A DNA stretch of 64,000 nt from contig CACVBU010000732.1 in the NCBI GenBank assembly GCA_902728285.1, positions 932,720 to 996,719 on the forward strand, in the 5' to 3' direction. A program made the position numbers and the translations under genes. This DNA is from Clytia hemisphaerica. Lineage: Eukaryota; Cnidaria; Hydrozoa; Leptothecata; Clytiidae. Positions 5,106-62,070 of the stretch are shown piece by piece; the first letter of the stretch is position 1, and each line of letters opens with the position of its first letter. Below the pieces are notes generated by a model. That model was not told the origin of the DNA, searched no databases, and worked only from the letters and a program-made list of their open reading frames with translations.

Positions 5106-5397
5106 TCTGTTTCTTCCTCCATTTTGATCCTTCTACTATTCTATTTTCTTTCTTTTTCACTAAAGATAAAAAACGACAATTTGACATTTGAACTCCATGA
5201 AAAACCCTCAACTTCTTTTCAACGTGATAACAAACTCAAATTTAACATTATAAAGGAAAAAAAGACTAAACTACTGGAAAATCTTTACTTACTTTGAGTA
5301 CGTTTCTAGCTCTCACTACAAATAAAAGAGATTTCATTTCAGCTTCCTGTTTCATATGATACACGTCTCGTGTATATGGTTAGAGAAAAACTTAAAA

Positions 5398-8246: not shown

Positions 8247-8320
8247 CAAACCAAATATGATATAATTTTATCAGTCTTTTTTTATAACTGAAAATTGAAA
8301 CAACAGAACCTGCAAAAACA

Positions 8321-19149: not shown

Positions 19150-19338
19150 CGACCCTTCAATTTGATAAATCGACCCTTCAATTTGACAAATCGACCCTTC
19201 AATTTGTCAAATCGAACCTTCAATTTGTCAATTCGACCCTTCAATTTGTCAAATCGAACCTTCAAGTTGTCAATTCGACCCTTCAATTTGACAAATCGAC
19301 CCTTCAATTTGACAAATCGACTCTTCAATTTGACGCTA
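19150..19338. repeat. 21 bp minisatellite, nine copies (left arm)
   Basis: Nine head-to-tail copies of CGACCCTTCAATTTGACAAAT with few substitutions. A degraded inverted counterpart is at about 23388-23515. Confidence 0.85.
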
Positions 19339-19444
19339 GTCCCAGTCCCTCTTTCAAAGAGATTTAGTCTGTAAAATGGGCTAGTTCTCCATGTATCTTG
19401 CCTATTAGATTAAGGAGATAATGCTTTTTATGTATTTTTCTTAT

Positions 19445-19985
19445 TCCCCATAGTCCCTCTTTCCCCATATTCCCTCTCTCCCCATATTCCCTCTTTCCCC
19501 ATGTTCCCTCTCTCCCCATATTCCCTTTCTCCCCATATTCCCTTTCTCCCCATATTCCCGTATTCCCATATTCCCTTTCTCCCCATATTCCCATATTCCC
19601 GTATTCCCTTTCTTCCCATATTCCCTCTCTTCCCATATTCCCTCTATCCCCATATTCCCTTTATTCCCATATTCCCTCTCTACCCATATTCCCTCTCTCC
19701 CCATATTCCCTCTCCCCAAATTCTCATTTTTCCGTATTCCCTTTCTCCCCATATTTCCTGTCTCCCCATATTACCGTATTCTCATATTCCCTTTCTCCCC
19801 ATATTCCCTGTCTCCCCATATTCCCATATTCCCGTATTCCCTTTCTCCCCATATTTCCGTATTCCCATATTCCCTTTCTCCCCATATTCCCATATTCCCG
19901 TATTCCCATATTCCCGTATTCCCTTTCTCCCCATATTCCTATACTCCCTTTCTCCTCATATTCCCATTTTCCCTTTAATCCCTTA
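19445..19985. repeat. CCCATATTCCCTCTCT-type microsatellite (left arm)
   Basis: Variable units of about 6-18 bp based on CCATATTCCC with CTCTCT, CTTTCT or GTATT spacers. The encoded Pro/Ile/Phe/Ser repeats (and Gly/Glu/Tyr repeats on the other strand) are spurious. Confidence 0.85.
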
Positions 19986-19999
19986 TTAAGGGAATAGAC

Positions 20000-22690: not shown

Positions 22691-22692
22691 CA

Positions 22693-23295
22693 TAATATGG
22701 GAATACGGGAATATGGGGAGACAGGGAATGTGGGGAGAAAGGGAATACGGGAATATGGGAATATGGGGAGACAGGGAATATGGGGAGACAGGGAATACGG
22801 GAATATGAAGAGACAGGGAATATGGGAATATGGGGAATATGGGAGTATTCGGAATATGGGAGTATGGGAATATGGGGAATATGGGAGTATTGAAATATGG
22901 GCAGAGAGGGAATATGGGAAGAGGGAATATGGGAATTTTGGGAGAGGGAATTTGGGGAGAAAGGGAATACGGGAATATGGGAATATGGGTAGAAAGGGAA
23001 TACGGGAATATGGGGAGAGAGGGAATATGGGAAGAGAGGGAATATGGGGAGAAATGGAATATGGGGATAGAGGGAATATGGGAAGAGAGGGAATATGGGG
23101 AGAAAGGGAATATGGGAATACGGGAATATGGGAATATGGGGAGAAAGGGAATATGGGGAGAGAGGGAATATGGGGAGAAGGGAATATGGGGAGAGAGGGA
23201 ATATGGGGAAAGAGGGACTATGGGGAATAAGAAAAATATGGGGAGAGAGGGAATATGGGGAAAGAGGGACTATGGGGAATAAGAAAAATACATAA
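22693..23295. repeat. GGGAATATGGG-type microsatellite (right arm)
   Basis: Reverse complement of the left-arm array. The long frames of 218 and 150 codons here encode only GNMGREGIWGE-like repeats and are not genes. Confidence 0.85.
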
Positions 23296-23537
23296 AAAGC
23301 ATTATCTCCTTAATCTAATATGCAAGATACATGGAGAACTGGCCCATTTTACAGACTAAATCTCTTTGAAAGAGGGACTGGGACTAGCGTCAAATTGAAG
23401 AGCCGACCATCAAATTGAAGGGTCGATTTGTCAAATTGACAAGCCGACTGTCAAATTGACAAGCCGACCATCAAATTGAAGGATCAATTCGTCATCCAAT
23501 TGAAAGGTCGAATTTTGTAAGGTATCTAACTTCATAG

Positions 23538-41269: not shown

Positions 41270-44200
41270 ATGTCATCGGAGACACGGAACCTGACCATTA
41301 AATGGAGTGGTAAAGAATACAAATTGGAAGATGTCTCCTTACAATTCACTGTTCTTGAACTGAAGAATCTCATATTTGAGAAGACGAATGTTCGACCAGA
41401 AAGACAGAAATTGTTAACTCTCAAACTCAAAGGTAGACTTTCAGTGAAGATTCTTAACATAGATGTTTTTTTTCGTAAGAGCATCCAAAATTTTTGAAGC
41501 CCAAAAATGTTCATAATATGTTCTTATTTCATGCTCACCATTTTGTGAGTAATTTTGCCCATTTTGCTAAGAAATCGGGGGGTCAGAGTCCACAAAGCCT
41601 TCTTAACTTGTTCTTAATATTTTGGCCATCGAATCCTTTTGTTCTTATATAGTTGTTCCTTTAAAAAACGTTATAGTCTGTTCATACTTTATGAGACAAC
41701 TTTTGTAGCCGGATCAAACTTAGAGTACAGTAGTACAGTAGAGTACAGGATTTTTTTCGCGAAGGACTTTAAAAATTGATATATTCGTGATTTTGTGCTT
41801 TTTTGCCGTTGGATGATGCATATACAATATAAGCGCTTCTTTCATCCAACAATTAAAAACTTATTATTCTTTGGTTGAATATTTCTCAGGCAAGCCAGCA
41901 ACAGACTACATTAAGTTGAGCGCGTTGACCATCAAAGAAGGTATGAAGATCATGATGATGGGCTCGCAAGAAGAAAAACTGGTCAGTTCAGTTTTGATTC
42001 GTTTAAAGGTTTTGTTTTGATTAAAAGGTCACGCACATCTTTAACGAGCAACTAATTTCACAAATATCACTCATTAAGAGAGAAGAGAAGAGAAGTGAAC
42101 CCTCCGAATCATCCGGAATGGGCCCTATCCCTGGATAGATACATACCCTAGGATAAGGGAAATTATTATATACCTGTAAGCAAAAACAGCCATTGAATAC
42201 TTCCTGATATACCATGTAAGTAATTATTAAGAAAATCATTAAAAAAGAAAAACATTCGAACGTTCGATTATGGGTGTGTTTTATGTGAAACATTTTTACC
42301 TATTGAATGTCTGCTTATTATCACGCTTACCAGACACTGCTAACCCTACGCTTGCGACACGACGACAGTTATTGGTGTATAGACGACGATACTCGAACTA
42401 CACGGGAGGACATACATCTAGACGACTAATTTAGACGATAGACAATTTATAAGCAAAAAATAAGGGAAGGATAAACTTGATATTACCCCGTATTAATAGA
42501 CGATATCGGCTTAACGTGAAAACTCAGATTTGACCTCCGAAAATTCCCCACAATGCTTTGCGCGGAAAAAAGTTCACCGTGAAATTTTTTCCGTACAAAG
42601 TTTTGGGGAATTCTCGGGGGTCAAATCTGAGTTTTCATGTGAAGCCGATATCGTCTATTATCATATCATCATATAACACCAATAGAACTGTTTTACACTG
42701 CTATACGACTCGACAGTCTAATGATTGACAAGATCTGACTTTGCTCTTACCCTATTCATCTTCAGGCAGAAGTAATTGCACCACCAAAAGAGATCACAGA
42801 GAATACCGTTGTAGACGATTTCGATATTGGCGAAGAAGAAATTGCCATAGAACACAGGTATCAAAAATGTGTAATGTATAAGTGGGACAATGCTCACTGG
42901 GTCAGGCTCTCTTTTCCTTCATCCTACTGCTTTTATCGTTGATAAATTGAACACTCCAAGGCAACCGTCAACCTTTTATAAGTATGTTCCTTTCGGTAAA
43001 TATTTGCCATTTCTTATATTTTTATTTTATTTCTTTATTCCTTTAGGGAGGAATACTTAGCGAAGATCCAGAAGCGAGTTGATAATTACAAAATCGAAGA
43101 ATTGAATGCCCCACGTGAAGGGAAAAAGTTATTGGTCCTGGATATCGATTACACATTATTTGGTATTTAAATTGTTGCTCAAAGTCATCTTTATATTGAG
43201 ATATCAATATCATACCGAACCCATATCAATAATTAGCGCCCTGACTTTTTTAAGAACGACATAGAATTTTTTTATATGAAAATTACATAAATCGAGATGA
43301 GCCTCATGGTTAATTTGAAAAGAAAAAACCTGAAACTGCAAAATTGTATTTGAAGGAAAAACTCAAACAAAAATTTTGAGGCTACAATTCTTTTAATTTT
43401 GCAAATTTAAGCCTTGACCGTTGATATGATAGATGTATAATTGTTGCTCTCTCTCCTTTTTCGTTCCCAGACCACCGTTCATCCGCAGAGAGAGGAGTGG
43501 AACTAATGCGACCTTTTCTTCACGAATTCCTAACAGCCTCTTACGAACACTACGACATCGTCATCTGGTGTAAGTGAATTAATTATTACATTTTGTTTAA
43601 ACTTTGAGCTCCTCTAGGATTTATAGCATTTCATCATTTCATTCGTACTCGCCCTTGGGAAATGGCGCTCAAAATATGTGACAGATAGGGTCATGGCACT
43701 AGGGTTTAGAAGGGTACTATCATCACGTAAACAATATAAGTAAACCCGTTGGCTTTACCAAACCAAAAATCGAATGGAATAGGAAGGTTCGTTTCTTCTA
43801 CCACCACTGATTAAGTCTCCAAAGTATAGCAGAAGCGTGAAAAATAAAATATCGTTTGAAAATAATACACGATTTACTAGCCTAGCATGCTAGACAGCTA
43901 AATCAGACATTATGGAATCCGGATAAATTTATACAAACTGATTTTATGTCGTAAAACCAACATGCATGCAACAACCGTATTAGACTGATTTTAAACGATT
44001 AGCACTTCACAACTAAGAATAATGCCAACAAAAACTTTAACCCTATTCAACCTAGGCTTTTAGGGGCGGTTCAGAACTAGGGGGGGGCTTTTCCTGTACC
44101 ACCCCTTAACTTTTGATCTAGTGAGTCTTTTTGGATGAAATTTGGCACACAAGATCCTTTTCACGTAAGGTAACTTTTGCCAAAATTTTTTTTGATGACG

Positions 44201-47200
44201 TCACTAATCATGCCCAAAGTGAGCAAAAACCGAAAATTTCCTTTGTTCTTATAAATAGCTATTGTATTCTAACAAAAGCTTTAGAAAAAAGTTGCCTGAG
44301 TTTAAAATGCTTATTTTATCCTAAATATTCAATAAATTACGGTTTAAACGATATATTTGACATTAAAAATCAATTTGTATTGGAAAAGTGTCAATTTTTT
44401 TGACATCTTACTGTCAGAAATGTCATCATGCTCAAGGTGTGAAAATTTTTAGGTGTCAAATTTTTTTTTTTTTTGAAGCTAAATAAAAGTTAGGAATTTA
44501 CAGAAAATTTCACGGCAAAATCTCTATTATTTCAGGAGGTATTACCAATAGTTTGACCTCCGAACAGAAAGAGCCCCCCCCCCTAGTCCGAATAGGGTTA
44601 AAGCTTACAAACTGTAGTTTATACAAACTGATATTATCCCGTATTATCGTATAACCAGGGATATGATAAAGCGTAGCGTACTCTTATAGTCTAAGTATAA
44701 TCTCATCAGACAAATATCTGGAAAGCTTGATAACAATTTTCAATATTGATCTCAGAATAAAATAAATCATATTCTCACCTTTAGCTCTTTACAACCCAAA
44801 CATCTTTCCCCTCTAACAGTAGTGTTGTTGAAAAAAAACTGGTGGAATATTTATTTTATCGCTACTTTCTTCTAGCTGTGAAATGAAAATACTCTTTTCT
44901 TCGTCCTATTATTCTTCTATCTTTAACGACCTTCTTATATCAAAGGAGTGTGATTATTTATGAATGAAGAGAGCTTGACTGAAATGATTTTTGTTGTAAG
45001 AATTCAATTTATTAGAAAAATGCACCAATAAGATCAAGTAAATATTTTCATAGTAAAGTTATTTTGCCAAAAACACGATAAAAATATGATATGATTCATA
45101 TGACACAAATTTTTCGATTTTGGATTCTTATAAAACATTCATTGCTAATGAAACCTTTCACCCTATCGCGCTGTTTTTGCTTGGATTACGAAGTTAAATT
45201 ATTAATGGTGCAAATTATTTTCCCACATTTCGACATAGAGACTTTCTTCTGTTTTCCTGTATACTTTTTGACCTGTCATCGAAAAGGTCAAGGAACCATC
45301 CATGGGCCTTCACTTTGGTTCTTATAAAAAATAGTGTAGGAGAAATGAACCTGATTACCCCCACCTCTAAACACTGAACCTCTGTCGCAGAAGAGCCTTA
45401 TAACTCAGATCCTTGATAAAGAAGAAATAAAGAACAATTTGAGGCTGGTGATCTGGTGTTGGAAGTATGAAAAATCGGGGAAACTTTGACTCGTTTTTTT
45501 TAATAACTCGAGTTTTAATAGCCGAATGAAGATGGAAATTTGTGTATATAGTGCAATTGATGTACGAAATAGACTAAAATCTAAAATTTCCGAAAACTAT
45601 AATCAGGTTTCTTGAAACAGAGCACTTTCGTTTTCTCAGATCCCTCAAAATCCCTAGAAATCCCCTCTCAGATCCCGCAAATCGGAATTCACATAATTCC
45701 GACTGTAGTGGTGCTACAGACCTAAAATTTTGACTGTAGGACCAGATCATAAATACAACAAGGATAAAAAAAAAGTTTTTGTTGATTTGATAAGTATTTC
45801 AACAAAAATTAAAATTAATCGATATTTTGAATCCGATAGCAGATCGCTGTGGCTCACATTTCACAAATTACTAAGAAAAAATTACTAAGAAAGTACTGAT
45901 TTAACAGATTTTTACCCATTTTTAGTATGGAGTAAAAAGACAAAGCGTATTTAGAACATCGTCAGCCTGAAAACTTGCAATAAAATAAGAATAGCCTAGC
46001 CTCGGTCAAAATTTACTGGCTCTTATAACAAAAGCATATAGTTCGCCTGTCTTCCTGAAACTAATGTCAACATTTTCAGTTAAGTTTTTCTCAAAATGTG
46101 CCCGATTCTGATAAAAGCGTGAACAAGTAACTTTTATCTACCCACATGTTTTTTCTTTTTAATACAATAATGACCGGTTAGTGAGGGCTGTACTGAGAAA
46201 TATTGCCCGAGGGCAATATTTTCAGTACAGCCCGAAAATAACCGGTCATTATTGTATTTGTTAACCGTTTCCTTCAACTTGGATTGAATTTTAGCGCTTT
46301 ATCCAAGAAAAATAGCGAAATAAAGCAGAAAAAACAAGCGAAAAGAGATAAAAAATTGCTATAATTTCTGACGTCTGAAATAAAAAATGAGAGAAATGAT
46401 GTCAACGCATTGTTCATTTTCCTTTGAAAAAGTGACGTCACAATGAATTTTCCTAACGACGGGCAACTCTGGACAATGTAGGCCCGTCGTCATGCGAAAA
46501 GAACCAATTGCATTGCGCAAAAAGCCATGTAGCCCGCTTCGAAAAAGTAACCGGTTAACAAATAAGCATAACGTTTATTAGCATATACAGGCTCAGTTTT
46601 GGGTACCTAAACAATGGCTATTGTTTGAGAACAATAGAATGCTAAGCATGAAACGAGCCTAGAAAAGGGACAGACACTTGCTTATATAAAAAAACATGTA
46701 GCAGGGATCTGACTTTACACTTTACAGTTTATCAAATTTAAAAGACTCGTACGATTTTTTTTGCAGTATTTTTATTTCAAGATATATAATATTTTATTTA
46801 AAAAAACCGACCATGCAGCAAATTTTTATGATTCAGCTGAAAATATCTTAATCCATCATTTTTAGACCTAAATTGACTCGACTGAAATTATTTTTAAAAA
46901 TTTTTTTTAGACCTAAATTTATTGACTCAATTTAAAATATTTTTTTGTAAAAAACGCTATTTTAGATCTGAATTAAATTGATTTTTTTAGACCTGAACTA
47001 AAAAATTGACTCAACTGAAAATATTTTTATTAACTTTTAAGACCTAAATTTATTAACTATCAACTAAAATATTATTATAAACACATTATTATTAGGCCTA
47101 AACTTAAGAATTGACTCAACTGGAAATATTTTAAATCTACATTTTTTATATATAATGGTATTTTTAAGTCCCCAACATTTTACTCTATCTATCATTTTTT

Positions 47201-50200
47201 CCTCACAATTAATGACTCCAAACCTTAGAAAAACAACGTTTTCATCAAACTCAGTTCGTTTTATCCATAATTTATAAGATTCACCCTAGTTCAGATATAA
47301 ATCACTTTCTTTGAGAGTATTTTTTGATGTTCACACACCCTTTTTGTGTGTTGGCGGGTTATCTGTATCTTGAATTTTATGTAAATATAGCGCTGCATGG
47401 TCGGCATAGAAAGAAAAAATAATTCAACACAAAATGGTAAAAAAAAGAATTAAAAAAAGAATTAGAATACAATAAAATGGAATTTAAAAAGGAAATTTAA
47501 AGATCAAAGTCAGCCCAAACTTCTGCATTTGAGCGCTCAGTGATTTGAGCGTTTTCATCCACGTTAACTGCAACGCCTTCACCTGACAATTGTGGTAGGA
47601 TGCGGATGGATGAGTTGCTTGAGGTATTGGATGATTTGAATCCTGCTGCGCGAGTCGAGGATAGTTTTGGGCTATCAAATTTCGCTCGAACGCCCTATAC
47701 GAAGTAAATAGGTAATACATCAGAATGCAACCTACCCAAGAAGGAGATCTAGGCCTATGCTCTGACATCAGGTATGAGTTGTGTTGCAGTCTACGTACTG
47801 GAATTCTTTGTCTTATATACCATTATACCAAGCTATTGAGATTGATTGGTATTAACGAAAACCATATTAGGAATATAAAGATTTCTCTTTTTCGTCTTCA
47901 ATACTTGTAAAATCTACTCGTGCTCATTAACCTATGGCCAAAAAAGGTTTTGAACAAAAGACGAAAAAAAAAACACTCACATTTTGCTCAGCCTTTGCGG
48001 CTTGCTCTCTTCGCTCACGAGCCAATTGTAATTTCCGATCAGTGGCTCCCTTTCGAGCAATCTTCCCTCGAACTTCTTCCAACCTTTTTTCTTGTTTTTG
48101 TGCGCGCTCGCTCTGGCCATCCATTCGGGCTTGTTTCAACATTTTGTCGTCAAACTTAACTATCTCCCGGTTTTCTTTTACACGTTTTTGTACAACACGG
48201 ATTTTCTCTAAGCGTTCTTCGTCGAGCAATTTCCTGTTGACTTCAGCCTGTTTTTGTTTTAATTCCAAGCAGGCCTTATTTTGACGTTTTTGTCGTTTCC
48301 CGTGGCTTGTCAAAACAGGTCGTGGTGTGCTGGATCTATCGCAAGGTGCCCCAAACTTAAGTTTAGTATCCAGCTCCCATGCAAATCCTGATGGCCCCTT
48401 CTCTAAGTTGGGCATTTGAGAATACAGGAAGTTTTCCCGCTTTTTCCGTTTAAGTTCCAAGTCAACCTTCGGTATCTTGCACACGTCTGAGAACGCCTGT
48501 TCAATGTCATCATCAACCTCACTTGCTTGTGAAGTGGGCTCTTTTACCGTCAAGTATTCAGCCAGCGATGGTAATGGCCTTGGTGTGATTGCCGGTTTTC
48601 CTGATTGAACAACTGAGGCTTTAGATTTCGCCTTATATGGTTGGTCAGGCGCACGGGCTAACCAGGCTGGTAGGGCAGATAGGTTGCAAACTACAGGTCC
48701 GTCGACATCCACTTCTGTGGGGAATTTATTCAATTGGCTTGTGGAACCGATACCAGTTGAACAAGTAGCTGAAGGTGTTTCCTTCCTCGCGGAATCGTCT
48801 AAATCTGATGACGTCAGGTTATCCAATTCATGTGAGATTTCAGAATCGGTAGACTCACATCGTTGGAGATATGCGTATTCTTTATCTTCGTCCACGTCGA
48901 TGACGTCACTTAAACTACCTTCGCTACTGCTAATGCTGACGTCATCATAATCAATAGTTTGTTTACCAGTAATGCCGAGAGATATCTTACCTGAAAAAAA
49001 AAGTCAGTCCATTGATATCTATTGAAACTATAAGCAAATATTAATTATAAAAAGTCTTTCTGAAACAAGAGCGTATTACTTGTGCATAGAATACCCTGTA
49101 CTAATACACAATGACAAGCAAATCAAACACAAAATGTTACGTAAAGAATTCTGAAACTCCCCTCTTTTCATCTGATATAGTGACTCTTTCTAGTTTGGAA
49201 AATACTAAGTGTTTTGACTCAAACTCCGCAATAAAGGTTGAGAAAAAATACATACTCAACCTGTCCAATCTCCTTTTTTCGGGTTTTGGAAACGAACTAT
49301 CACTATCCCCCCTTCTTAAGAAGGGGACTGAAACTGTTGAATTTGACTTACTTCTAATTAATTCTACATCTTGTTCGAAGCGATCAAGAATTTCTTCTTG
49401 GCTACATTTCTCTATATCATCACCACCATTGCACCAAGCGAACCTTTGGTACCATTGTTTGCTTGTGTTTTTAATATTGTTCTTTGTTGTGGCCAATTTT
49501 TCCGCCATCTTGCGCAATTTGCGTTGTCTTAAACGATCCCATAAGCGTTGCAAAATGTTCCGCTTGCGTGCTGGAACGTATTGAACTATAAAATTAAACA
49601 AAATTGTTTTTAGAATTGGAATACGCAGTGATGTTGGCTACGGTGTGGCCGTATCATATGATGAATTAAGATTAGTATTTTCGAAGGAAAGATTAAGCTA
49701 TGGAGGCCAAGATTATGCCTGTGTAGAAGCTGCCGGACCTATATTGATGGTGTTAGATTTTTATAATCACCATACAAATCGTAGAGTAGCGTGGACTCAT
49801 TAGACTTTATTCGTCAACATGAAATAAACTGTAAACTTGCATTACACTAAGAACACATAAGAAAACCTGAGCCTAAAAATTGAGAATGCGTATTCCAGGC
49901 TGAGGTACAATACCGAGTCTGAGTCAAGATTACTGAGGCTGAGTCAGAATTACTGGTACTTATAACGTTATGTAACATTATAATAGTAGTGATCGGTCGA
50001 ATTTTCAAAACATTTTCTGTTTTTTTACCGGAAATAGAGCTATGTATGTACACATTTTTTGATAAGGACAAACTATGTAAGAACACGAGGCTTCGATGGC
50101 AAAAATATTAGGCACATTCTATAAACATTATAAGGCTTTGTGGACTCTAAAACACCCGATTTCTTAGGAAGATAGACAAAAATACTTAAAAATGGTCAAA

Positions 50201-53200
50201 ATAAGAACATGTTGAAAATACTTTTAGGCCTAAAACTCATAAAGCGAAGAACATCCGAAGACCTCAAAAAGTTTTGATGCTTTTATGCACAAAAAAAAAC
50301 GTGTGCAGTAAAATCTTGGTGGTTTAAAGCTTAGGATCGTTCGCTTCAAGTCTACATCCCTTCCCTTAGATTGGAATAACATACCTTTATGATACTTTGC
50401 AGTATTATGTTCCAAGTAAGCTTGACGCGTGATATCGAAGTCTTTGCCACATCTTCCTAATAGGGCACCAGTATCTATGAACTCTTTTTGAGTAGCAATT
50501 TTGAAATGCTTCGATCGTAGATCCTCGTTGTACATGCAAAGTGAGCTTGTTGTGCCCTCGCGCTGATTTTCAGCGATGGCTGCTACCAACCTTCTGTGAG
50601 CCATAGTTTAACACGTCTATTCGTTAACTGTCTATTTATCCAAATAAAATTTTCCAAACTAACATTCTTTGTTTAAGAATTTTTCGAATGCGAATTAAAA
50701 ATTTTTGACGTCAATTATTAATTATTGGACCTTTCTGACTTGCTTTAAGCCGAAATTTTTATTTGACGTCAGCTTTATTTTAGTATTTCTTGTTTTTATT
50801 TCACCAAGGCAATGGTTATTTCTTAGTACCAATAGTGGTCGTTTTTCTTTTGCACAATATTTGCACCAGTATTGATAGGTGGTTTGCAGTAACTTAAGCT
50901 GGGAGCAAACCATCAAACATCGTTCTTCAAACATTTGAACTTTCTTGTTGAATGGTTTGCGCGGCATTTCCAACATTGTCTCAAAAATTTATTTTGTTGC
51001 ATTACAACGGCTTCTTTCTTTTGTTTACTTTTCAACTCAGGCGTTCGAAATCATGTCTTCCTTCTAGGGAAACCCCGAGTTGAATGTTTGAAAAGATTAT
51101 GAACTTGTTCAAACATTGTTTCAAACATATTTTTTGATCTTTTTGTTGAAAAGATACGATTTTTGACTTCGCAAACCGTCAAACATCAATTTCAAACATG
51201 AAACGTCACGATGTTTGAAGAACAATGTTTGACGGTTTGCTCCCAGCTTTAGCCTATTTTTGATTCCCAATCAATTCGAAACGAGACACTTCGGTCCGTA
51301 CTGGACCAATTTCCGAATTCAAAATAGTCTATTACCTTATATCATCCTTGTGTATTCCTGCGGGAAAGAGAGTCTCGGCTCATGCGCTCCCATAAAAAAC
51401 GCTTTTCGACATCTTTCACGGGGAATAATCAAGCGAAACAGACATATGCCCGCATAATGTACTGCCGAACGATAACGAGCGGTAACCGTGAATTACAAGC
51501 TTGAATATAATTTAAAAGGAAGGGAAAATCTGACCTAAAGTCGCTATTTCGATACATGGCTCTTGAAGGAAAAGACTGTTTTAAAATAATAGTTACGATT
51601 TTAAAATCTCGAAAATATAAATAAAGATAAAGAATTTTCTATTGCACCAAAAATCTTGCATTTATACTTTTCTGAATTACTTTCGACGGCTGTAGATTGA
51701 TTGAGAATGAATATGAAATAGAATGTAAGAGCAATGCATCAGACACACCAAGGGCCGTCATCATTGCTTTTCTTCAAATTTAAGTATAAATATAAACCAT
51801 TTAGAGTGTCACAAAAAAAGTGGACAGGCGGACTTTTTTATAAAAACTAAAATCCTCAAAACTCATTATCTATATTGGCTTAGAATTATTGAAATAGGAT
51901 TACAATTGTGTGTGCTATCAATATATATTCAGTTCCCAAGATGATTGAATAGGTTTTGGAGATTGAAATATTAAGTAAACAGTTATAAAATTTCGCATTA
52001 ATCATAAGGATTTTACTTTACATAAAAATTTGCCTCTTTTTTCGGACACACTGTACATCGTTATACTTTAAAGCTTCCAAATCAAAATCAAAATTAAAAT
52101 TGTGTTACATTTTTATGCCTAAAAGCGTCATTGAATTCGTAGAATACCAGTTTTTGGTGAACATTTTTATTTTGATCATCTAGTTCGCGAAAGTTTATGC
52201 TCGTGAAAAATAATTTTTCCTCGAATTCGCGAAGGTAAATATCGTAAATTTCGCGAATTTTCAACCTCGCGAAAGTTTCTGCTCGCGAAAGTTTGTACGC
52301 CTAAAGTATCTGCTATCTTTCAACGAAGTTTTACTAATCTGGTATCCTGTCAGTGTGCTGAGTATGGCTCAATCGGGTGCAAATCATAGATTTATAAAGC
52401 CCGAAGGACTAGATGTCGTGCTTTGGCTGAAAAGTGTGCCGAGGTTAGGTAGGAAATCCTAAATAGGTCACGTGAAATTACAATAGAATTTCAGCGCTTG
52501 ACCAAAAAGCTTCGCGGGTTTTCAAAAACAATAGCAGCAATATTTTTTGCGATTTTCACTATTTTTGCTTGCACGACATCTAGCCCTGTATCTGTGGTAC
52601 AAATACTGTTTTCGTTAGAAATATCACTGACCCCTATCGAAAAGTGTATCAGATTGGAATAACCTTTTGGTCTAAAATATTTAACACGCTGGACTGAGGA
52701 ACTATGTCCATGGTTCTGTATTTGATATTTGAGTCTTCTTTATTTTTTATAGCGGCGACAGGTATGAAATGGATCAAGGCTAAAATGGAAGTAAGTATTT
52801 GAAACATATCCTTTCTGGTATTAGAAATTGTTAAGATTAGCTTAAACATCAGTTTTACCAATTTTGATTAGCCAAATCAAAATAAATTTCACAAGAGAGT
52901 CTATGCACTTTGGTAGCACATAATTATGATTTCCAAAATATTCATTGAAACATTTACTATCCAGCCCCTATAACTCATTTTCCTGATTTTCCTGATTTTC
53001 TGTACAACAGGAATTAGGTGTGACGAAGAATCCAGCGTACAAGCTCATGTTCATGATTGATAGTGGTGCTATGATCACATTGCATACCGATCGATATGGA
53101 ATTATGGAGGTAAAAACTCTGTACAATCGATTGTTCGTCCGTCTTCAAACTTTTATTAAAGTACTTAATATGGAGAAAGAGTTCATTTTCTTAACCTTTT

Positions 53201-56200
53201 TTATATAATTCTTTATGTAATACCCTCAAAGAAACAACTGCGATAATGCTTACTTAACTTTGACGGGTTCCAAACAGCGTTGCTTCATAAATTACCTTTG
53301 TTTGACTGATTCAGTTTTTCCGCTGAGTTTAGACTAAAAGGTAGAAACACGGTTTTACTTTTTTGCAAACTTTTTTGTGAGTCGACGAAGTTTTTCATAT
53401 CAGATGACGTCAAAAATGCACATTGCGCATGCCTATCATCTGAAAAATTAATCCTGTGCTGAAAATTTAAGCTCAACGGAACACCGACTTAACAAAGAAT
53501 ACATCTAGCGCTATTGATGCGAATATAGCCTCTATTTTTGGACCTACCCCGGTGGAGGTCCTATAAATTAACCTCTGTCCGTTCGTCCGTCCGTCCGTCC
53601 GTTCGTTACCAACTTTTTTCGAGATTGGCTCTTTCATTCTTTATGATTTTTTGCACAAAGATGCATAACTATAAACCCTCGAATGTGACGGAGCCTGATT
53701 TTCGAAAAATAATGTTTTTGGATAAATTTGGGCCAAAAAACGGCTAAAAAACGGGTTTTTTGGACTTTATGAAAAATTGAATCATTAATTTTTTCTGATT
53801 TTTTGCATGAAAGTAGGTGAAAGATGGCTCAAGCAGATTTTTGTAAAAAAAGAATTTTTCAGCTCAAAAAACGCATTTTATCTATAAGAATCACTATTAA
53901 TAAGCATACATCAATGTTCTTAGCCAAATTACTCAATTTTTTGATGAGATAGATGTTTTTTTGCTATCGAAGTCTTGAATAAGAAAGAATATTTCAAGAG
54001 CATGAAATTCTGGTTTCTAGACGTTTTTTATAAGAAACAAACGACTAATTTTAATAGATCGTCACTATTTGTGTTCTGAATGATCGTTTAATGAATGATC
54101 GTTTAATGGTCATGCTCACGGAGATATCAATTATATATGTTAAATGCATAACCAGGTAGGTCCATAAAAGTATCACTTGTTTAACCTCCAATAAAAAATG
54201 AGAGATATAAATTCGCCCCGGGTTTCCATTTAGGTCAGTAGTATCAACGACCTTTGTAAACGAATTTGAGATAATCATATCCTAGAACACCCCCCTCCTT
54301 ATTACCTCTACATGCAAATCTTTACAAAGTATCTTTGATGCGGGCAGAGTTATACGATGATCTTTTTTTCCAAAACAACCTAGAAATAGCTAAACTACCT
54401 AATAAACTATAAAACTAAACTATAGCTAAACCAGGGAAGAACTGGTCGCTTTTCAGCAATTTTTAATTTGAAATAATAATTCATTTGCAAACACTCGGTC
54501 TTTCCCTAGTTAGTAAGTTCTAATGATTTAATTCTGGGAATTTTCTACTTCTTTTTGTAGACGAAACCGTTGGGTGTTATTTGGGGCAAATATCCACAAT
54601 ACCATAAAAACAATACAATCATGTTTGACGATTTGAGAAGAAATTTCTTGATGAATCCTACTTGTGGGCTAAAGGTGAATAATTTTTTTTTATCACATTT
54701 GTTATACGGTTCAGGCTTCCCTTTACTATCTGAAGGTCGATAATTCATATTATTTGTCGACTAACGTACTCATTTTTTCACAATTTTTTAATAAAAGAAG
54801 GCTGATATATTGTGCAACAAAATGAGAAGAGCAACCTGAATCATCAGATAGTATTGACTTAAAGCAAATTTTATCTTTAGGTGAATAAAGTAATCATATT
54901 TTAGGAAAATTGCCCTTATCAGGGAAAAAAATGTCGGGGGAAAGTGATAAAAATTTTGAGGGGGTGACGAAATTTTCCCCCGACGAATTTTTACACCGAT
55001 ATTTCATCACCCGACCAAAACTTACCCAATTTTTTAAACCCTAACCAAAACGAGAATCACCTTTTTATTAACCGAAATTAGTGCTTTAAACGTCGAATTA
55101 CAAGATCTTTTTTCGAGCTAGTGAAGGAAACCATTTCATTTGGACAATTTAGTTGGGTGAAAGTGACTAAATTGTCAATTTCGTCGGGGAAAAGTGACGA
55201 AAATGCCTCTAGGTGACGAAATTTTTCCCCGACTAAATAAAACTCCGACATTCTTTCCCCGATAAGATGAATTAAGAACTAGGGTGAGTCACCCGGGGAG
55301 TCACCCGGGGAGTCACCTCTCATAAAAAACTCGGTTCTATAGTTGAAGATAAAAGGGATCCATGATTCCTTTTTCTAGATCAATCCGTTATTTTTGAAAT
55401 AGAGACTCGCTTTCAAATCTGCCAATTGCTGCTAAGGCCTGTTGTTAATTTTAAGTAATCTAGAAAATTGTCCTTCTCCACCCCTACAGATCCGACCTTT
55501 CAAGAATGCACACCAGAATCGCGACAAGGACCGAGAGTTGGTCAAATTGACCGACTATTTGTTGAAAATTGCGGAGTTGGATTCCTTTGAATCACTTGAT
55601 CATTATAAGTGGGAAAAGTAAGTGTTCCCTTTTGTTTACGAGGGTTATAACATAACTCAGGTACAATGAAGTTCAAAATAAGACCTGGAGCTGTCTATTG
55701 AGTAGACTATTTTTTTTTCAAATATTATGACTTTGATTGTACTTGGTAAATGTTGAATGAGATTTGGGTACATACTGATCAGATCTTTAATTAAACCCTA
55801 TTACATCGGCTGTAAGTGTATATGCTGTTTTTGAATAGGTTTGTTGAAAGATAAGACCGCCCATAAAATCTAATCATGACTCGTCACCAAGTATCGCCTT
55901 GATATTTTGTGATCCATTGCTTTTTTATCTGGAAAAATCTTTTCTCCATTTTACTTCTCTTGTCGTTTTTTAATCAGTTGGGTGAAGTTGATCGAAAACA
56001 AACCTTTTAATTAACACAACCTTGAATTTTTTTATCACGAAAAGTTGATCTACATAAAACAACCTTCAAACATTTGCTTAAGTCATCTTTCTAAATATAT
56101 TACCCTCGGAAAAGTTTTCCCCCTTTCAAAAAACTTGAATAAAAGTAAAAGTCTTTTAAGAATCCGTTAAAATGGGAAGAATGATTTTTCCGAGTTTCTT

Positions 56201-59167
56201 GGTTTTGATGGCCATAATGGCGGTGGTTGCATTTTGTGGTGCACATAGTTTCGGAGGAGACTCCTCTGAATACCACTTTTTGCTAAAAAAATACACTTCT
56301 GTATCATTCCATTCTCAATGCCTCAATGCGACCAATCGAACACCTCTGAACGAGCTGGCATCGATATTGAAATCAAAAGAAGGAGCTCCTTATGTTTGGG
56401 ACGGCCTTTTAGAAACCAATCAAATCGAGTATATGGATATTTGCAATGATACTGATCTACTGCTTGGAGTCTTGGTAGATATGCTGCTTGACCAGAAATA
56501 CTTTTTCCAGCCTAAAGAAAACATTACTACATGGAGATATCAGAATATTTTATACCTTTTGGCTGTAGTTCCTGATTCAATGTCTCGAATTATTGAGGGT
56601 GTTTTGAGTTTTTCAGAAACTTTTAGAGTGTGTGGCCCACGACATTGTGACCAGAGGCTTAATCTGAAATCTATTGACGACCAAGCTTTACAATTGAGAT
56701 CACTTTTAGAACGTTTCGAATGGGATGACGTCACTCTCATCACAATATCCGACAATTTTGAAGATTATTGGATCAATTACTTTAACAAAACTTCCAGAAT
56801 CCTTAAAGAATCGGAAACTTTTTGTCTCAAAGCTAAACTTTTTGATACCGGAGACACTTATGAGGAATTTGAGAAAATGATACTCGAGATCAAATACTTC
56901 CTCATTAACACACGCAATTATACTAAAGTTATTGTGTGGGGCGGTCGACAAACGCATGTCCAAAATTTCTTCAGTGCGCTACGTGATTTTTTTCTTCTCA
57001 ACTTCTCAAAGACTCCAATGATATTTCCATATGGCGATTTTCATCATTCGACTGAGAAAACGCCGTCTGATTTCCAAGCCCTCCCTTGGTTGGCCAACTA
57101 TCAAGAAAGGAGAAGTGTCTATACTGTCGGTGATTTGGAAATCAACGCCATCAAAGAAGCCGCGTATAAAAATAGACGTCGTTATGATGAAAGGATATCT
57201 TTACATAAAACTTTGGAGCAGATTTTTCCATACATGGGACATTCTTATGTGCTGCCTTACTATCAGGACATATCCAACATTGACGATCCTTTTGATGATT
57301 ATCCAATTCTGATGAATTGGTCAAAGACGTTTCTTCAAGAAGTGAAATTTCGCGAGCAACAATGCAATAGATTCCGCTGTGAACCAGGTTTTCAACAAGT
57401 GTATGGTTCCATTGAGAATCCATTCTTTGATGAGATGTATGGCTTCAAATGTGTACTTTGCCCTGTTAACCATATCAACCCATTTTATGGTGATGGAAGG
57501 TGTATGAAATGCAACGTTGAACCTTTCGTAATCGATAACGGTGACAGAACTGTTTGTGTCGACCCTTATTCTAATGCGGATATACATTTTACCATGATGC
57601 AAACATATTTGGTTTTAGGCACAGGGTTGGGCTGTATTTTATTGACTCTAACCAACTTCATTGTTTTTATTGCCAAACGTAACACGCCCCTTGTTCGATC
57701 CTCTGATGAGATTTTATCCATACTGCATCTAGCGAATATATTGCTGACAATCGCTTCTTTGCTTTATCTCAATCTTGTCCAGAAAGTCACCATTGCTAAA
57801 TGCATCGCAGCAAATATGATCATCAGCGTCTTCTATGTTATCAATGTGGCTTTTGTTTACACTAAATCGCAAAAACTTTTGACTGCTTTCCGTTCTCATG
57901 TTCATCTATCGCGTAAAGAGATTCGCCTGACTTCAGCCGCTCAAGTTTTTACCGTTGCCGTCTTTTTGTTGATTTCAAATGCAATCACCATTATCATCTT
58001 CACTCAAGAATCGCCAAATATAATCAATTATATTGACGATGACCAGATGTTGCGAGTCCATTATTGCAATACTGGATATCACGTTAATGTCTTGATTGCC
58101 TTCATCACATTCTTACAATTGTTATGCTTGATACAAGCCTACCGTGGACGCAATTTACCAGGCCCGATGAATAACGCCATGTCTCTTGTCTATGCAGTTC
58201 TGATCGCCACCATAAATTTCCTGATTTCCTTTCCTATTACTGCGTTCCTGGATCAAGTGGACAAAGAATTTGCACGATTGATTGTCCTGATGACCAATTG
58301 TATTTTCATAGTGTTGCTTTTGTATGGACAAAAATGTTACCTCATCATGTTCAAACCGCGCAAAAACACCAGGCATTATTTCGCACAAAAGAGAATGGAA
58401 GCAATGTCTCTGTCTACCACCAATCTTCCATCATTCTAAAGTACAAGATAAACTTCCAGTCATGTTTTTGGGCTAGCGAGAAAATAACTTTGCGGTATGT
58501 TGAAGCTTGCAAAAATGAATTTAAGTTTTGTAAAAGTTGGTAGAGCTAGGTATAGTTTGCATAAATTTTTATTAATTACTTGTTGTTTCATTATTTGTGT
58601 GATTTTTATGTAATTTATTTTTTTGTATTGTATTTAGTTTTTTTTGAACCTGAAAGAACTTTAAGCTCTATGATTAGTGACACTCCTATTCGTGTATGGT
58701 CAGTGTCCTTTAGTCTTTCATTCGTGTTACGATTTTGGAAATGAAATGTTTTTTATAATTTTTGATTTAATCGCACAGACATGTTTCAATGACGAAATCC
58801 TAATTTTGAGCTTTCTTACAATGGGTTGACAATGGACTTTCTATTGAAAGAATAGAAAGTTTTACAATAAGCAATGGCGTGTAGCAGATGCATCCCTCTG
58901 GCAGCTGATTTTCCAGGGGCATTCCATTTTAAACCAAACAATCGGCAGTTTTTTATCATTAAAGAAAAAAAGGCTATTAAAAATTTCTTGTTTTTTTACA
59001 GAAACTTTCATTACTAAAAATGTTTTTGAAATTAAAAAAGTTAAAATGCGAATTTGAGAAATTTTTTCTTCTTCACTTTGCCTCTTTTTTTAGCATGTGC
59101 AATATCATTTTCTGAAAATTCTAATGTTTCGACTTTATCTTTTTTTAGGTATTTGAGCCGGAGATAA
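41270..59167 (+). CDS. UBLCP1: Ubiquitin-like domain-containing CTD phosphatase 1, ten exons
   Basis: Exons: 41270-41432, 41890-41981, 42766-42857, 43047-43162, 43471-43569, 52753-52790, 53011-53109, 54561-54674, 55490-55617, 59149-59167 (stop TAA). Introns are GT/AG and phases agree, giving 319 residues; vertebrate UBLCP1 has about 318. Residues 1-80 are the ubiquitin-like domain, which binds the proteasome subunit RPN1/PSMD2 in known members. The HAD-type FCP/SCP phosphatase domain follows, with the catalytic DxDxT motif as [10 protein letters not shown] at the exon 4/5 join and further family blocks [35 protein letters not shown] and [15 protein letters not shown]. The C-terminus is HYKWEKYLSRR. 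Known members dephosphorylate the nuclear 26S proteasome and lower its activity. Introns 5 (9.2 kb) and 9 (3.5 kb) contain other genes. The ATG is the first in the domain frame and matches the family start. Confidence 0.95.
42494..42660. mobile_element. Palindromic MITE in UBLCP1 intron 2 (167 bp)
   Basis: Arms TAATAGACGATATCGGCTT and ..AACTCAGATTTGACC pair with GGTCAAATCTGAGTT and AAGCCGATATCGTCTATTA. Its transcript within the intron would fold into a long hairpin. Confidence 0.7.
43570..44040. other. UBLCP1 intron 5, first part: no separate gene
   Basis: No exon seen. A word TATACAAACTGATTTTATG at about 43930 has a partner at about 44620, on either side of the TTAA element; the two may be parts of one interrupted repeat. 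Confidence 0.35.
44041..44597. mobile_element. TTAA-flanked, piggyBac-like MITE in UBLCP1 intron 5
   Basis: Ends CCCTATTC and GAATAGGG are directly flanked by TTAA on both sides (44037-44040, 44598-44601). Just inside are inverted CTAGGGGGGG stretches. TTAA duplication with CCC-starting ends is the hallmark of piggyBac-type transposition. It has no transposase, and the 90-codon frame inside has no motif. Confidence 0.7.
44602..46143. other. UBLCP1 intron 5, AT-rich, no gene seen
   Basis: Open frames are short and featureless. Confidence 0.35.
46144..46699. mobile_element. ACATGT MITE family, copy 3, carrying an inserted hairpin element
   Basis: The outer ends ACATGTTTTTTC and TATAAAAAAACATGT and the right-hand interior (AAGCATAACG, CATATACAGGCTCAG, ACACTTGCTTAT) match copies 1 and 2. 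About 400 bp (about 46161-46560) absent from the other copies interrupts it near the left end. The insert comprises a strong hairpin and a second TTGTTAACCG/CGGTTAACAA pair. Confidence 0.65.
46161..46258. repeat. Strong 98 bp hairpin (AATACAATAATGACCGGTTA)
   Basis: AATACAATAATGACCGGTTA pairs with TAACCGGTCATTATTGTATT, and GGGCTGTACTG..AATATTGCCC with GGGCAATATT..CAGTACAGCCC, leaving a GA centre. Almost every base is paired. Confidence 0.75.
46850..47120. repeat. Degenerate AT-rich tandem repeat, ~50 bp unit
   Basis: The pattern TTTAGACCTAAATT..ATTGACTCAACTGAAAATATTTTT recurs about six times with indels. Non-coding. Confidence 0.6.
47497..50604 (-). CDS. Coiled-coil protein of unknown function, nested antisense in UBLCP1 intron 5
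   Basis: Exons: 50604-50385, 49585-49256, 48990-47981, 47694-47497. All introns are GT/AG, and phases 1, 1 and 0 join cleanly into 585 codons plus stop. Exon 1 (residues 1-73) starts [17 protein letters not shown] and has a [20 protein letters not shown] segment. Exon 2 begins with a basic helix ([20 protein letters not shown]). Exon 3 opens acidic and serine-rich, has proline-containing linkers ([13 protein letters not shown]), then about 100 residues of Lys/Glu/Arg-rich predicted coiled coil (about 420-520). Exon 4 ends [10 protein letters not shown]. No signal peptide or membrane segment; probably cytoplasmic, cytoskeletal or ciliary, but this is only composition-based. I do not recognise the family. 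Exon 4's correct frame is the one joined to exon 3, not the longer overlapping frame. Confidence 0.8.
50706..50771 (-). promoter_or_regulatory. Two CRE-like sites upstream of the nested coiled-coil gene
   Basis: TGACGTCA at 50706-50713 and 50764-50771, about 100 and 160 bp upstream of the ATG at 50604 on the minus strand. This octamer is the consensus site for CREB/ATF bZIP factors. Position and spacing suit a proximal promoter; binding is untested. Confidence 0.45.
50895..51251. mobile_element. MITE with TAAGCTGGGAGCAAACC ends
   Basis: Inverted ends TAAGCTGGGAGCAAACC (50895) and its complement (to 51251), continuing as TCAAACAT.GTTCTTCAAACAT. An 84-codon minus-strand frame (50976-50722) starts inside it and is judged spurious. 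Confidence 0.65.
51252..52398. other. UBLCP1 intron 5, late part: relics, no gene
   Basis: A possible mariner-type MITE at 51806-52056 has loosely inverted GTGTC.C.AAAAAAGTGG and CTCTTTTTTCGGACACAC ends. A cluster of TTCGCGAAAGTTT words at 52190-52310 is related to the element at 6832. No exon supported. Confidence 0.4.
52399..52587. mobile_element. MITE, GAAGGGCTAGATG family, copy 2
   Basis: Ends GCCCGAAGGACTAGATGTCG and GCACGACATCTAGCCC. The interior matches the element at 14545-14812 in the reverse orientation. It ends about 165 bp before UBLCP1 exon 6. Confidence 0.65.
53110..54560. other. UBLCP1 intron 7: dispersed repeat with GTCC microsatellite
   Basis: A repeat of the type GACCTACCCCGGTGGAGGTCC followed by (GTCC)n-like TCCGTTCGTCCGTCC lies at 53541-53620. 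The rest of the intron is AT-rich and has no supported gene. Confidence 0.4.
54915..55266. mobile_element. MITE in UBLCP1 intron 8 with CTTATC.GGGAAA ends
   Basis: CTTATCAGGGAAAAAAATGTCGG at the left is the near-complement of CCGACATTCTTTCCCCGATAAG at the right. GTGACGAAATTTTCCCCCGAC-type words repeat inside in both orientations. Confidence 0.6.
56172..58439 (+). CDS. Class C (metabotropic-type) GPCR, intronless, nested in UBLCP1 intron 9
   Basis: 755 residues in one exon. A signal peptide spans about 1-25 (hydrophobic [17 protein letters not shown]). An extracellular ligand-binding-like region runs about 30-390 with several N-glycosylation sequons. A cysteine-rich linker (about 395-462) includes [21 protein letters not shown] and TVCVDPY, the NCD3G pattern. 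Seven membrane segments lie at about 472-725. Class C landmarks are [20 protein letters not shown] after helix 1, [15 protein letters not shown] after helix 5 and [13 protein letters not shown] at the end of helix 7. Likely a plasma-membrane receptor for an amino-acid-like or other small ligand; the ligand is unknown. The extracellular domain is shorter than in mGluRs (~500 residues). It lies on the same strand as UBLCP1, between exons 9 and 10, so its transcription must be compatible with read-through of the host. Confidence 0.88.
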   Translation: MGRMIFPSFLVLMAIMAVVAFCGAHSFGGDSSEYHFLLKKYTSVSFHSQCLNATNRTPLNELASILKSKEGAPYVWDGLLETNQIEYMDICNDTDLLLGVLVDMLLDQKYFFQPKENITTWRYQNILYLLAVVPDSMSRIIEGVLSFSETFRVCGPRHCDQRLNLKSIDDQALQLRSLLERFEWDDVTLITISDNFEDYWINYFNKTSRILKESETFCLKAKLFDTGDTYEEFEKMILEIKYFLINTRNYTKVIVWGGRQTHVQNFFSALRDFFLLNFSKTPMIFPYGDFHHSTEKTPSDFQALPWLANYQERRSVYTVGDLEINAIKEAAYKNRRRYDERISLHKTLEQIFPYMGHSYVLPYYQDISNIDDPFDDYPILMNWSKTFLQEVKFREQQCNRFRCEPGFQQVYGSIENPFFDEMYGFKCVLCPVNHINPFYGDGRCMKCNVEPFVIDNGDRTVCVDPYSNADIHFTMMQTYLVLGTGLGCILLTLTNFIVFIAKRNTPLVRSSDEILSILHLANILLTIASLLYLNLVQKVTIAKCIAANMIISVFYVINVAFVYTKSQKLLTAFRSHVHLSRKEIRLTSAAQVFTVAVFLLISNAITIIIFTQESPNIINYIDDDQMLRVHYCNTGYHVNVLIAFITFLQLLCLIQAYRGRNLPGPMNNAMSLVYAVLIATINFLISFPITAFLDQVDKEFARLIVLMTNCIFIVLLLYGQKCYLIMFKPRKNTRHYFAQKRMEAMSLSTTNLPSF

Positions 59168-60160
59168 TAGGAAACACCTTAGCAACTGAGACATGGGATG
59201 CGTATACGTATTTCCGAATTCCGAGTTGATGCTACGTTGACGTAACGTTGATAAATGATTTTTCGAAGGGGCATTTAAATTTTTGTAGTCCCTAAACTGT
59301 AACATCAGACCCCTGTTTACTCCGCCAAAGCCGACAGTGGATTGTGTGAACGACTGTTGCTGGTGACTTTGTGACTGTTGCTTCATATATGAATTTGAGG
59401 GAAAATCCAGCTTAATGCAGGGCTAATGCGAGATAAAAACAACGACCCTTCTTCCACAAAATCTTTTGTAAATCACAGTACTGAAAGAATAAGAGAAACT
59501 AATTTTCAGTTGCTGGATGTGAGCTGTTTTATCGATGGCTGCTTTAAGCTTCGAATTATAAATGGTGTGAAATGAGGGTTAAAGGTTGTGTAATGTTTCA
59601 GTGTAATGGCTGTGGAAAAATTTTATTTAGAAACTTGAAAGGAATAACACAACCCTTGACTTGAAATAGGCTGGGATGTTTTTTACCTACTTCATAAGTT
59701 TAGTTGCCACAATGATAACTACACCCCTGTCTCACAGTTCCGGGGTGAAACTTTTTTCTACAGCGAATTTTGATTGAAATTTCAACGGGGATAAAAATTA
59801 TATTGTTCCAAGGTTAAAAAATCCAGTGGGATGGTTTTGGAAGGCAATTTCTAAACAACGAATTTCGAATGGGATAAAATCAAAATCAATTTCTCAGTGG
59901 GGCTGAAATTCTGGGGTATTTTTCTCACCGGTGACGAAATTTTTGCCAAATTTTCCAGTGGGGCTTGGGCCCCGACGCAGGGATGTACACTTACTTGTAA
60001 ATGACATTATTTAGTTTCAGCAAGTCATCTTACTTGAGATTTTAATGATTGATAAAAATTCATACTTTGAAAACTAGTGAAGATACTGAACAATAATCGC
60101 TTAAGAACCCTCTTATCTTGCTCTGATCGATACCTAACGGTGGAACCCCAAGCTTGATTT
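59168..60160. other. 3' flank of UBLCP1; dispersed repeat copy 2
   Basis: No exon beyond the UBLCP1 stop. 59775-59980 is the second copy of the repeat at 14096-14300 (GGGGATAAAAATT, GGTTTTGGAAGGCAATTT, GCCAAATTTTCCAGTGG). No canonical AATAAA is evident close to the stop codon. Confidence 0.45.
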
Positions 60161-60164
60161 AGTT

Positions 60165-60845
60165 ACTTGGGGCAGAGGAATGTAAAGAGATGGAAAACAG
60201 CTTTTCTGATTACTCAAAGTTCAACGATCACTTCTATTGAAAATTCTATTGTAAAAACGTTGATTAGGTCATTAAATGAAAGTCCAGAAAAGACGGCTCG
60301 CCATACAAATCGGACGGTTTCTACATGATTTGACGATAAAAATGAAAATTAGTTTTTCCTTTTTTGCCGATTACTAGTTCAATTTTTAAGAATAAGGAGC
60401 AATATTTTTACTAATGTATAACAAAAGAAATTCCTAACGCAATGATATTAAATTGGTTCTTGTAAAACTGTCAGAAGTCGAGTAAAATCAAGATAAAGTT
60501 ATAATCTTCTCGAGCTCTAGCCTTCCATATTATGGTGCGGTCATGATGCGGTTATATCAGTAGAATCGCTAGGAAATTCTGAGCAAGAAGATATAGGTAT
60601 CTTTTCGTATAGGAGAGGTGTACCTAAAATATAAGCCCTAAAAGTTTGCGCATAATAAGGCTTGAAACAAAAGAATTTTGTCACAACACGCTAATTATGC
60701 AGATTTTTTCTAGCGACAACAAAAGAAACCTATTTACTCGACATAAACTCCCTTAAGGACAAGAGACCTGGTATATGACGAGCCGTTTTTCCATTGTTTT
60801 CAAGAAGCTGTTTTTCCATCTCTTTACATTCCTCTGCTTGGGGGA
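60165..60845. mobile_element. ~0.68 kb inverted-repeat element
   Basis: GGGGCAGAGGAATGTAAAGAG at the left pairs with CTCTTTACATTCCTCTGCTTGGGG at the right. A second inverted match, ACGGCTCGCCATA (about 60293) with TATGACGAGCCGT (about 60773), lies further in. Non-coding. Confidence 0.65.
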
Positions 60846-62070
60846 AATAAACTTAAATTTGAGGATGGCACTACTAGATAGTAGATTTAATATTTTTCAC
60901 TGTTTTGTTCCTTTTTACCTTATTTAATTGTACTATGTCAGTTATTGAAATAGCCTTTTTGACGATTAATGGAAATAAACATATCTAAAAGTAGTAGTAG
61001 TCATTATATTAAGGATTATTCAGCTCTATCAATTATTTTTTTCATAAGAAGTGTCAGTAAATTATCTTAAATTTTTCTGATGTCCGCTAGTTGAAAATAA
61101 TTGCTATGAAGTGGAAGTTATTTTCGAGGCCGATTTACATCCCTCAATGAATCAGAGGGGTTTGATAGCCTTGTGAACTGTCATTAGTTCGGTTCCCTCC
61201 GCTCCAAAAATTTCTAGACAAAAGCTAAGATTCATAGTACAAGTCCCCATTACCTAACCAGGGTAAAAAAAATTTTAATTTTTATTTAGTCGGGTATTTT
61301 TTTCGTCGCGGCGACGAAACATTTTTCCCCCGATAAGGTATATTCCTCTCTCTGTTGTTCTTCGTTCCCCACTAGACTTTGCCCGGGTTTTCGCTTTTCC
61401 CGATTATCGCCCGGAAAGTGCCTTACCCGAAACAGTCGGGTCTGATTTGACGACAGTACTATAAACATAACATTATTGGTCGTACGAGGTCTGCTATTAT
61501 AGTATTACAAGTCGTAAATAATTATAATGTAAGCTTGTGCGAACCGACTTTACGTACCAACAAGTGCCATTTATTTTCAAGTCAGCACAGCACACATTCT
61601 AGAAGTTGCTTTTTGACTGCACCTGTTTGCCCTCATCCTTCACAATGTCCGAAGTTGATACCAAGAAAAGGCATCGTGGTATTCCAGAAGCAACATTTTT
61701 GGTAATTTTCTGTTTTTATCCTTCCCGGGGCCGGGTGGTGCGGGTTGTTTGAATCAAAGTGGTGCATTTTTCTGCAATTTGTATTATACTTCTGGTCTAT
61801 TTCTCAAGGATTATTGTAAATTAGGATACCTGTGGCAGTCTCTCCTACTTAGGAGAGTATCTTAAATTCAGCGAAGTCAAGTTTGAAGAGGACCCTCCCG
61901 GCGCTCCGGAAACATCCGGAGCTACTAAAAGTGCCGTTTTTTTCGTGCTCCGAAACACTGGAAGATTCCGGAGCACGATTTTAGCAACTCCAGAAGATTT
62001 TTCATATTTTAATTTTTTTTTCAAAACCTATCCTATCTTGTAGAGCTTTGAAAAAAAGAAAATGAGCGGT
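60846..62070. other. No gene seen
   Basis: 61285-61445 contains GTCGGGTAT and ACAGTCGGGTC ends with ACCCGAAA and CCCGATAAGG words, possibly a small repeat related in style to the CACCCGAC element. An inverted CCGGAGCAC/GTGCTCCG pair is at about 61925-61975. No exon supported. Confidence 0.35.

Follow-up and report, generated by a model that had tools for sequence, protein, structure and literature searches.

Does the housekeeping gene UBLCP1 of the hydrozoan Clytia hemisphaerica run intact through two genes that lie within its introns, one on either strand, or does it end before it reaches the second of them? In the window, as the whole stretch of 64,000 nucleotides analysed is called here, a class C GPCR lies between exons 9 and 10 of UBLCP1 and an antisense gene lies between exons 5 and 6. 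The explanation that we hold to be probable is that an intact UBLCP1 hosts two independent intronic genes and that both introns would be spliced out. All three genes are called complete in the sense that their coding models, read from the sequence, are complete. The value of the UBLCP1 locus would then lie mostly in being a clear-cut case of nested animal genes. It also carries a warning for annotation: a last exon of 19 bases on the far side of a nested gene can easily escape notice, and UBLCP1 would then be truncated or fused with the receptor.

Structure and identity of the UBLCP1 gene

The model of UBLCP1, rebuilt from the raw sequence, has ten coding exons on the plus strand and spans 17,898 bases (41270-59167). 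All nine introns have GT-AG ends and the exons join in phase to give 319 codons and a stop, as the preliminary description had claimed for ten exons over 17.9 kb. The features of the host gene are as follows.

41270-59167, plus strand: UBLCP1 host gene, 319 amino acids (splice sites, phase, 3shq, PF00240, PF03031)
41270-41432, plus strand: UBLCP1 coding exon 1 (exon model)
41890-41981, plus strand: UBLCP1 exon 2 (exon model)
42766-42857, plus strand: UBLCP1 exon 3 (exon model)
43047-43162, plus strand: UBLCP1 exon 4, with the catalytic DIDYT motif (exon model)
43471-43569, plus strand: UBLCP1 exon 5 (exon model)
43570-52752, plus strand: UBLCP1 intron 5, 9,183 bases, contains the antisense gene
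52753-52790, plus strand: UBLCP1 exon 6 (exon model)
53011-53109, plus strand: UBLCP1 exon 7 (exon model)
54561-54674, plus strand: UBLCP1 exon 8 (exon model)
55490-55617, plus strand: UBLCP1 exon 9 (exon model)
55618-59148, plus strand: UBLCP1 intron 9, 3,531 bases, contains the GPCR
59149-59167, plus strand: UBLCP1 exon 10, 19 bases, C-terminal YLSRR (acceptor scan)

The best solved relative of the encoded protein is 3shq (named UBLCP1, 320 amino acids), which we take to be the Drosophila protein and which matches residues 9-316 of the 319 in the query with an E value of 2.3e-117. The N-terminus is also matched, at E values of about 1e-18, by the UBL-domain structures 2m17, 2lgd and 2kx3, which carry the name UBLCP1, and by 1v5t (a Rik clone); a plant UBL protein is a weak match. 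Against Pfam, the N-terminal ubiquitin-like domain (PF00240) scores 38.2 bits with a cut-off of 25.4, and the FCP/SCP-type phosphatase domain (NIF, PF03031) scores 80.8 bits with a cut-off of 21.8. Both domains are present in a single protein that can be aligned end to end with 3shq. The DIDYT of the translation fits the phosphatase motif DxDx[T/V], as that rule is given in PMC7281111, and human UBLCP1 has 318 amino acids, going by the construct numbering in PMC5451543. The codon usage of the proposed frame is the best of the three frames of the same strand. Judged by its protein, the host gene appears to be complete.

Two inverted repeats capable of forming hairpins, perhaps small non-coding transposons, lie in intron 2 (42494-42660, 60-base arms, 92%) and in intron 5 (50893-51252, 42-base arms, 93%). 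Elsewhere in the window, inverted arms of 467 bases, 92% complementary and 4.3 kb apart (622-5848), have a transposon-like arrangement, and the minus-strand frames between them match no Pfam family over cut-off. Another pair of arms at 19317-23406 (172 bases, 98% complementary) is a possible young mobile element and adjoins inverted minisatellite arrays with units rich in CCCATATT. Scans of the 64-kb window with Rfam and for tRNA genes gave no match.

The last exon and the C-terminal tail

The integrity of the host gene depends on an exon of 19 bases that lies beyond the receptor. Between 55660 and 63969 there are 409 AG sites at which splicing from exon 9 leads to a closed reading. The peptide begins with K, R, N or H, followed by Y and then by L, I, V, M, F or H, at six of these 409 acceptors. 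The pyrimidine content of the tract in front of 59149 is 85%, compared with 35-60% for the other five Y-bearing acceptors. Conversely, a pyrimidine content of 80% or more occurs at nine of the 409 sites, and the eight other than 59149 have no K-Y-L-like continuation; acceptor 59094 (90% pyrimidines) gives NMCNIIF and acceptor 55978 (80%) another peptide, neither resembling the tail of 3shq. The 19-base exon 10 is therefore credible, because at 59149 alone a strong pyrimidine tract of 80% or more precedes a K-Y-L continuation, yielding K-YLSRR, and a last exon that arose by chance is judged unlikely on the same count of one in 409. The scan thus supports the earlier assignment of YLSRR to an exon at 59149-59167. 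The description of this tail as conserved stands in part only. In the alignment with 3shq, the pattern W-E-x-Y is common to both proteins, so that the tyrosine is shared; the residue after it is not, and the closing SRR lies outside the alignment. The tail of human UBLCP1 has a similar Y-L-S start.

Further downstream on the plus strand, 61643-61702 is likely to be a first exon, reading MSEVDTKKRHRGIPEATFL and followed by a GT donor. This stretch resembles prefoldin subunit 3 (VBP1), and a PDB search with its 20 amino acids gave no match. If real, this exon would bound the 3' end of UBLCP1.

The genes within introns 5 and 9

The two genes inside UBLCP1 differ in strand and in structure.

56172-58439, plus strand (host strand): class C GPCR, single exon, 755 amino acids (PF00003, calcium-sensing receptor match)
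47497-50604, minus strand: antisense gene, four exons, 553 amino acids (GT-AG introns, phase)
50385-50604, minus strand: antisense gene exon 1 (gene model)
49352-49585, minus strand: antisense gene exon 2 (gene model)
47981-48990, minus strand: antisense gene exon 3 (gene model)
47497-47694, minus strand: antisense gene exon 4 (gene model)

The receptor occupies a stop-free frame of 759 amino acids (56160-58439), in which the ATG at 56172 gives a protein of 755. Its seven-transmembrane domain matches 7tm_3 (PF00003) with an E value of 1.3e-21 and 77.8 bits against a cut-off of 33.5, and among solved structures the protein is most similar to the calcium-sensing receptor, aligned over residues 423-736 (E 1.8e-14). 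The ectodomain scores 14.0 bits for the Venus-flytrap family ANF_receptor (PF01094), below the cut-off of 25.4, and the fold predicted from the single sequence, with a mean pLDDT of 39.6, is too poor for judging the fold. The codon usage score is 0.014 in the proposed frame against -0.087 and -0.121 in the other two frames of the same strand. The entire coding region lies inside intron 9 and has no introns, as expected of a retrogene, and the single 755-codon frame with PF00003 over its cut-off bears out the earlier account of an intronless class C receptor in this intron. A search for a target-site duplication around the gene returned two exact shared words of 10 bases as the longest, which is the commonest value in 100 shuffles; an old insertion would have lost such a repeat. 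At 8288-9316 on the plus strand, the window contains another GPCR with a single exon, this one of the rhodopsin class (7tm_1, E 5.8e-25).

The coding region of the antisense gene lies entirely inside intron 5. Its three GT-AG introns all keep the phase and leave an intact frame of 553 amino acids, so that the four-exon gene wholly within this intron, as first described, is upheld as a gene model. Since it has introns of its own, it is not a fresh retrocopy. No Pfam family scores over its cut-off with this protein, and in the PDB it weakly resembles stathmin-4 (E 0.015), a result taken as an effect of composition. The codon usage score is 0.232 in the proposed frame and 0.184 in the best of the five other frames.

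The longest frames in the two introns are far beyond what composition would give. Stop-free frames of 759 and 358 amino acids exceed the 158 reached at most when introns 5 and 9 were base-shuffled 200 times, and a chance origin of these frames is rejected on that ground. In each of the three genes the proposed frame scores highest for codon usage, the lead over the other frames being small in the receptor and in the antisense gene. These small margins, together with the lack of a Pfam family for the antisense protein and the sub-threshold match of the receptor ectodomain, are what would be seen if one of the nested genes did not work, either because the receptor is an incipient pseudogene of recent age or because the antisense model is a frame that has decayed or arose by chance. 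Such a failure appears improbable, as the frames of 755 and 553 codons are intact and the three GT-AG introns of the antisense gene keep phase. Another way to account for the arrangement is an assembly error, by which a wrong join put the receptor or the antisense gene inside UBLCP1. The window contains no N, and the nine introns of the host and all of its exon phases are consistent around both nested genes, which makes a wrong join very improbable. At the sequence level, then, the double nest of UBLCP1, receptor and antisense gene is confirmed, and the identities of host and receptor are supported together with the nesting of all three.

The 3' end of UBLCP1 and its possible regulation

If UBLCP1 is an intact host, its pre-mRNA would span the full 17.9 kb and run through both nested genes. 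Introns 5 and 9 would then be spliced out, and removal of the 3.5-kb intron 9 would join exon 9 to the 19-base exon 10 across the splice sites observed. The receptor may have landed in intron 9 as a copy from a large dispersed class C set by duplication, perhaps by retroposition; it is probably transcribed from a promoter of its own and active in few cell types. The antisense gene, as modelled from the sequence, would be a separate gene of the opposite strand, presumably also with its own promoter. Conflict between the host and the nested genes is probably slight, as they would be used in different cells, which is usual for nested pairs in published surveys. Against this explanation can be set the codon usage, which favours the antisense frame only slightly, the lack of a family match for the antisense protein, the absence of an insertion scar around the receptor and the alignment of the YLSRR tail at its tyrosine only.

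Intron 9 itself offers signs of another 3' end. Reading on from exon 9, an in-frame TAA (55619-55621) follows directly after the lysine, and a candidate polyadenylation signal lies between exon 9 and the receptor.

56138-56143, plus strand: AATAAA, the sole sense copy in intron 9, downstream of exon 9 and ahead of the GPCR

UBLCP1 might on these grounds end within intron 9, with cleavage near 56138, which would put the receptor downstream of UBLCP1 as a neighbour and reduce the 19-base exon to a chance match. The AATAAA is only 34 bases upstream of the receptor start, and from 56172 to 60845 there is no sense AATAAA at all, where 4.1 are expected and 1% of 200 shuffles are as low; the bounds of this gap were set after the sites had been viewed, and it is discounted as evidence for that reason. 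Over the UBLCP1 gene, a depletion of sense poly(A) signals was rejected (21 AATAAA against 22.4 expected). The stop, for its part, is a by-product of the donor: exon 9 ends in a good splice site, AAAA/GTAAGT, which at that phase creates the TAA by itself. The single AATAAA is fewer than the 2.9 expected in the intron by composition and is within chance. In addition, the acceptor at 59149, with its 85% pyrimidines, restores the tyrosine shared with 3shq. An end of UBLCP1 in intron 9 as its regular 3' end is thus quite unlikely.

A different proposal is that both 3' ends are used, transcription of the receptor shifting UBLCP1 to the end in intron 9 and to a protein without YLSRR. Nesting on the strand of the host is costly in known cases. 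Human tandem nested genes can cause exonization, intron retention and upstream cryptic polyadenylation, according to PMC3192792, and in the mouse H13/Mcts2 pair the host is driven to intronic polyadenylation when the nested gene is transcribed, as described in PMC13309782. Host and receptor are on the same strand at the UBLCP1 locus, and exon 9 is separated from the receptor start by 554 bases, a distance to be read beside the 52% of nested-gene effects that PMC3192792 places within 0.5 kb. The TAA at 55619-55621 and the AATAAA at 56138 would serve such an end, and the mechanism has been shown at H13/Mcts2 (PMC13309782). On the other side, exonization rather than intron retention is the main effect of nested genes in PMC3192792, which implicates seven of 31 re-evaluated human protein-coding tandem pairs as possible cases, and the AATAAA count is within chance. 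A short UBLCP1 isoform is possible given the 554-base gap, the stop and the AATAAA. We consider it unlikely that the switch operates, and doubtful to the same degree that the receptor acts through it as a switch of its host, in which case cells expressing the receptor would make tail-less UBLCP1 and dephosphorylation of the proteasome would be coupled to the cell's sensory state. Transcriptional interference at UBLCP1 is a fair question, with precedents in PMC3192792 and PMC13309782. If the switch were true, the UBLCP1 locus would add another natural example in which transcription of a nested gene selects where the host mRNA ends.

Evolution and comparison with other nested genes

An intact UBLCP1 with two independent genes in its introns is less exceptional than the preliminary description implied. 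Nested genes make up about 4-12% in animal genomes in the surveys reported in PMC8467205 and PMC10282587, and at least 151 class C 7TM matches were counted in the C. hemisphaerica genome (a 417 Mb assembly in 951 contigs). This count is a lower bound, 150 of 336 candidates having been scored, and allelic or repeated copies are left in it. Among the matches listed, 117 of 150 fall within open frames 700 or more amino acids long; the 150 are spread over 104 contigs and 26 of them are within 10 kb of another. The receptor of the window itself is absent from those listed, so the list is incomplete. With many dispersed and apparently single-exon class C genes, some are expected inside introns, and a landing of this kind is likely and unremarkable. 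The large class C set, apparently of single-exon genes, is perhaps more interesting than the nest. For comparison, 33 receptors of the class C family are given for Amphimedon in PMC4302439.

The published frequencies place each nested gene separately. In seven vertebrates, nested genes are 4.3-8.7% of protein genes, and the shares in human (4.4%) and mouse (4.3%) are about half of that in Drosophila (PMC8467205). According to the same survey, internal genes are usually used in fewer cells than their hosts, and 220 of 296 simple nested pairs in human are of opposite strands, which puts the antisense gene with the majority and the same-strand receptor with the less frequent arrangement. In a glass sponge, the share of nested genes is 12.4% compared with a typical 5-10%, and several genomes have almost none, which the authors blame on annotation (PMC10282587). 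In the literature, among the 15 listed of 11,521 papers, the only one to mention UBLCP1 together with nesting and introns is by its title a study of cholangiocarcinoma, and of two papers that combine nested genes with class C receptors neither, as listed, deals with such a nest. On the best reading, the UBLCP1 locus is an ordinary double nest, a further example of well-known gene nesting.

Known systems resemble parts of this arrangement. The glass sponge Aphrocallistes vastus, as described in PMC10282587, also has many nested genes, including the single-exon glassin inside another gene; its genome is a compact one of 80 Mb, unlike the 417 Mb of the assembly considered here. In the H13/Mcts2 pair, as at UBLCP1, the nested gene lies in a broadly used host and an intronic polyadenylation site, here the candidate AATAAA, lies upstream of it. 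H13/Mcts2 differs in being imprinted and in having its effect shown by experiment (PMC13309782), whereas the UBLCP1 locus is known from signs in the sequence alone; the latter also has a second gene, antisense in another intron. The antisense gene has a parallel in 2mit within timeless2 of Drosophila, where a broadly acting host carries a protein gene on the opposite strand of one of its introns (PMC3786989). Both host and nested gene are different ones there, and the account of timeless2 in that source describes one nested gene, compared with the two found in UBLCP1.
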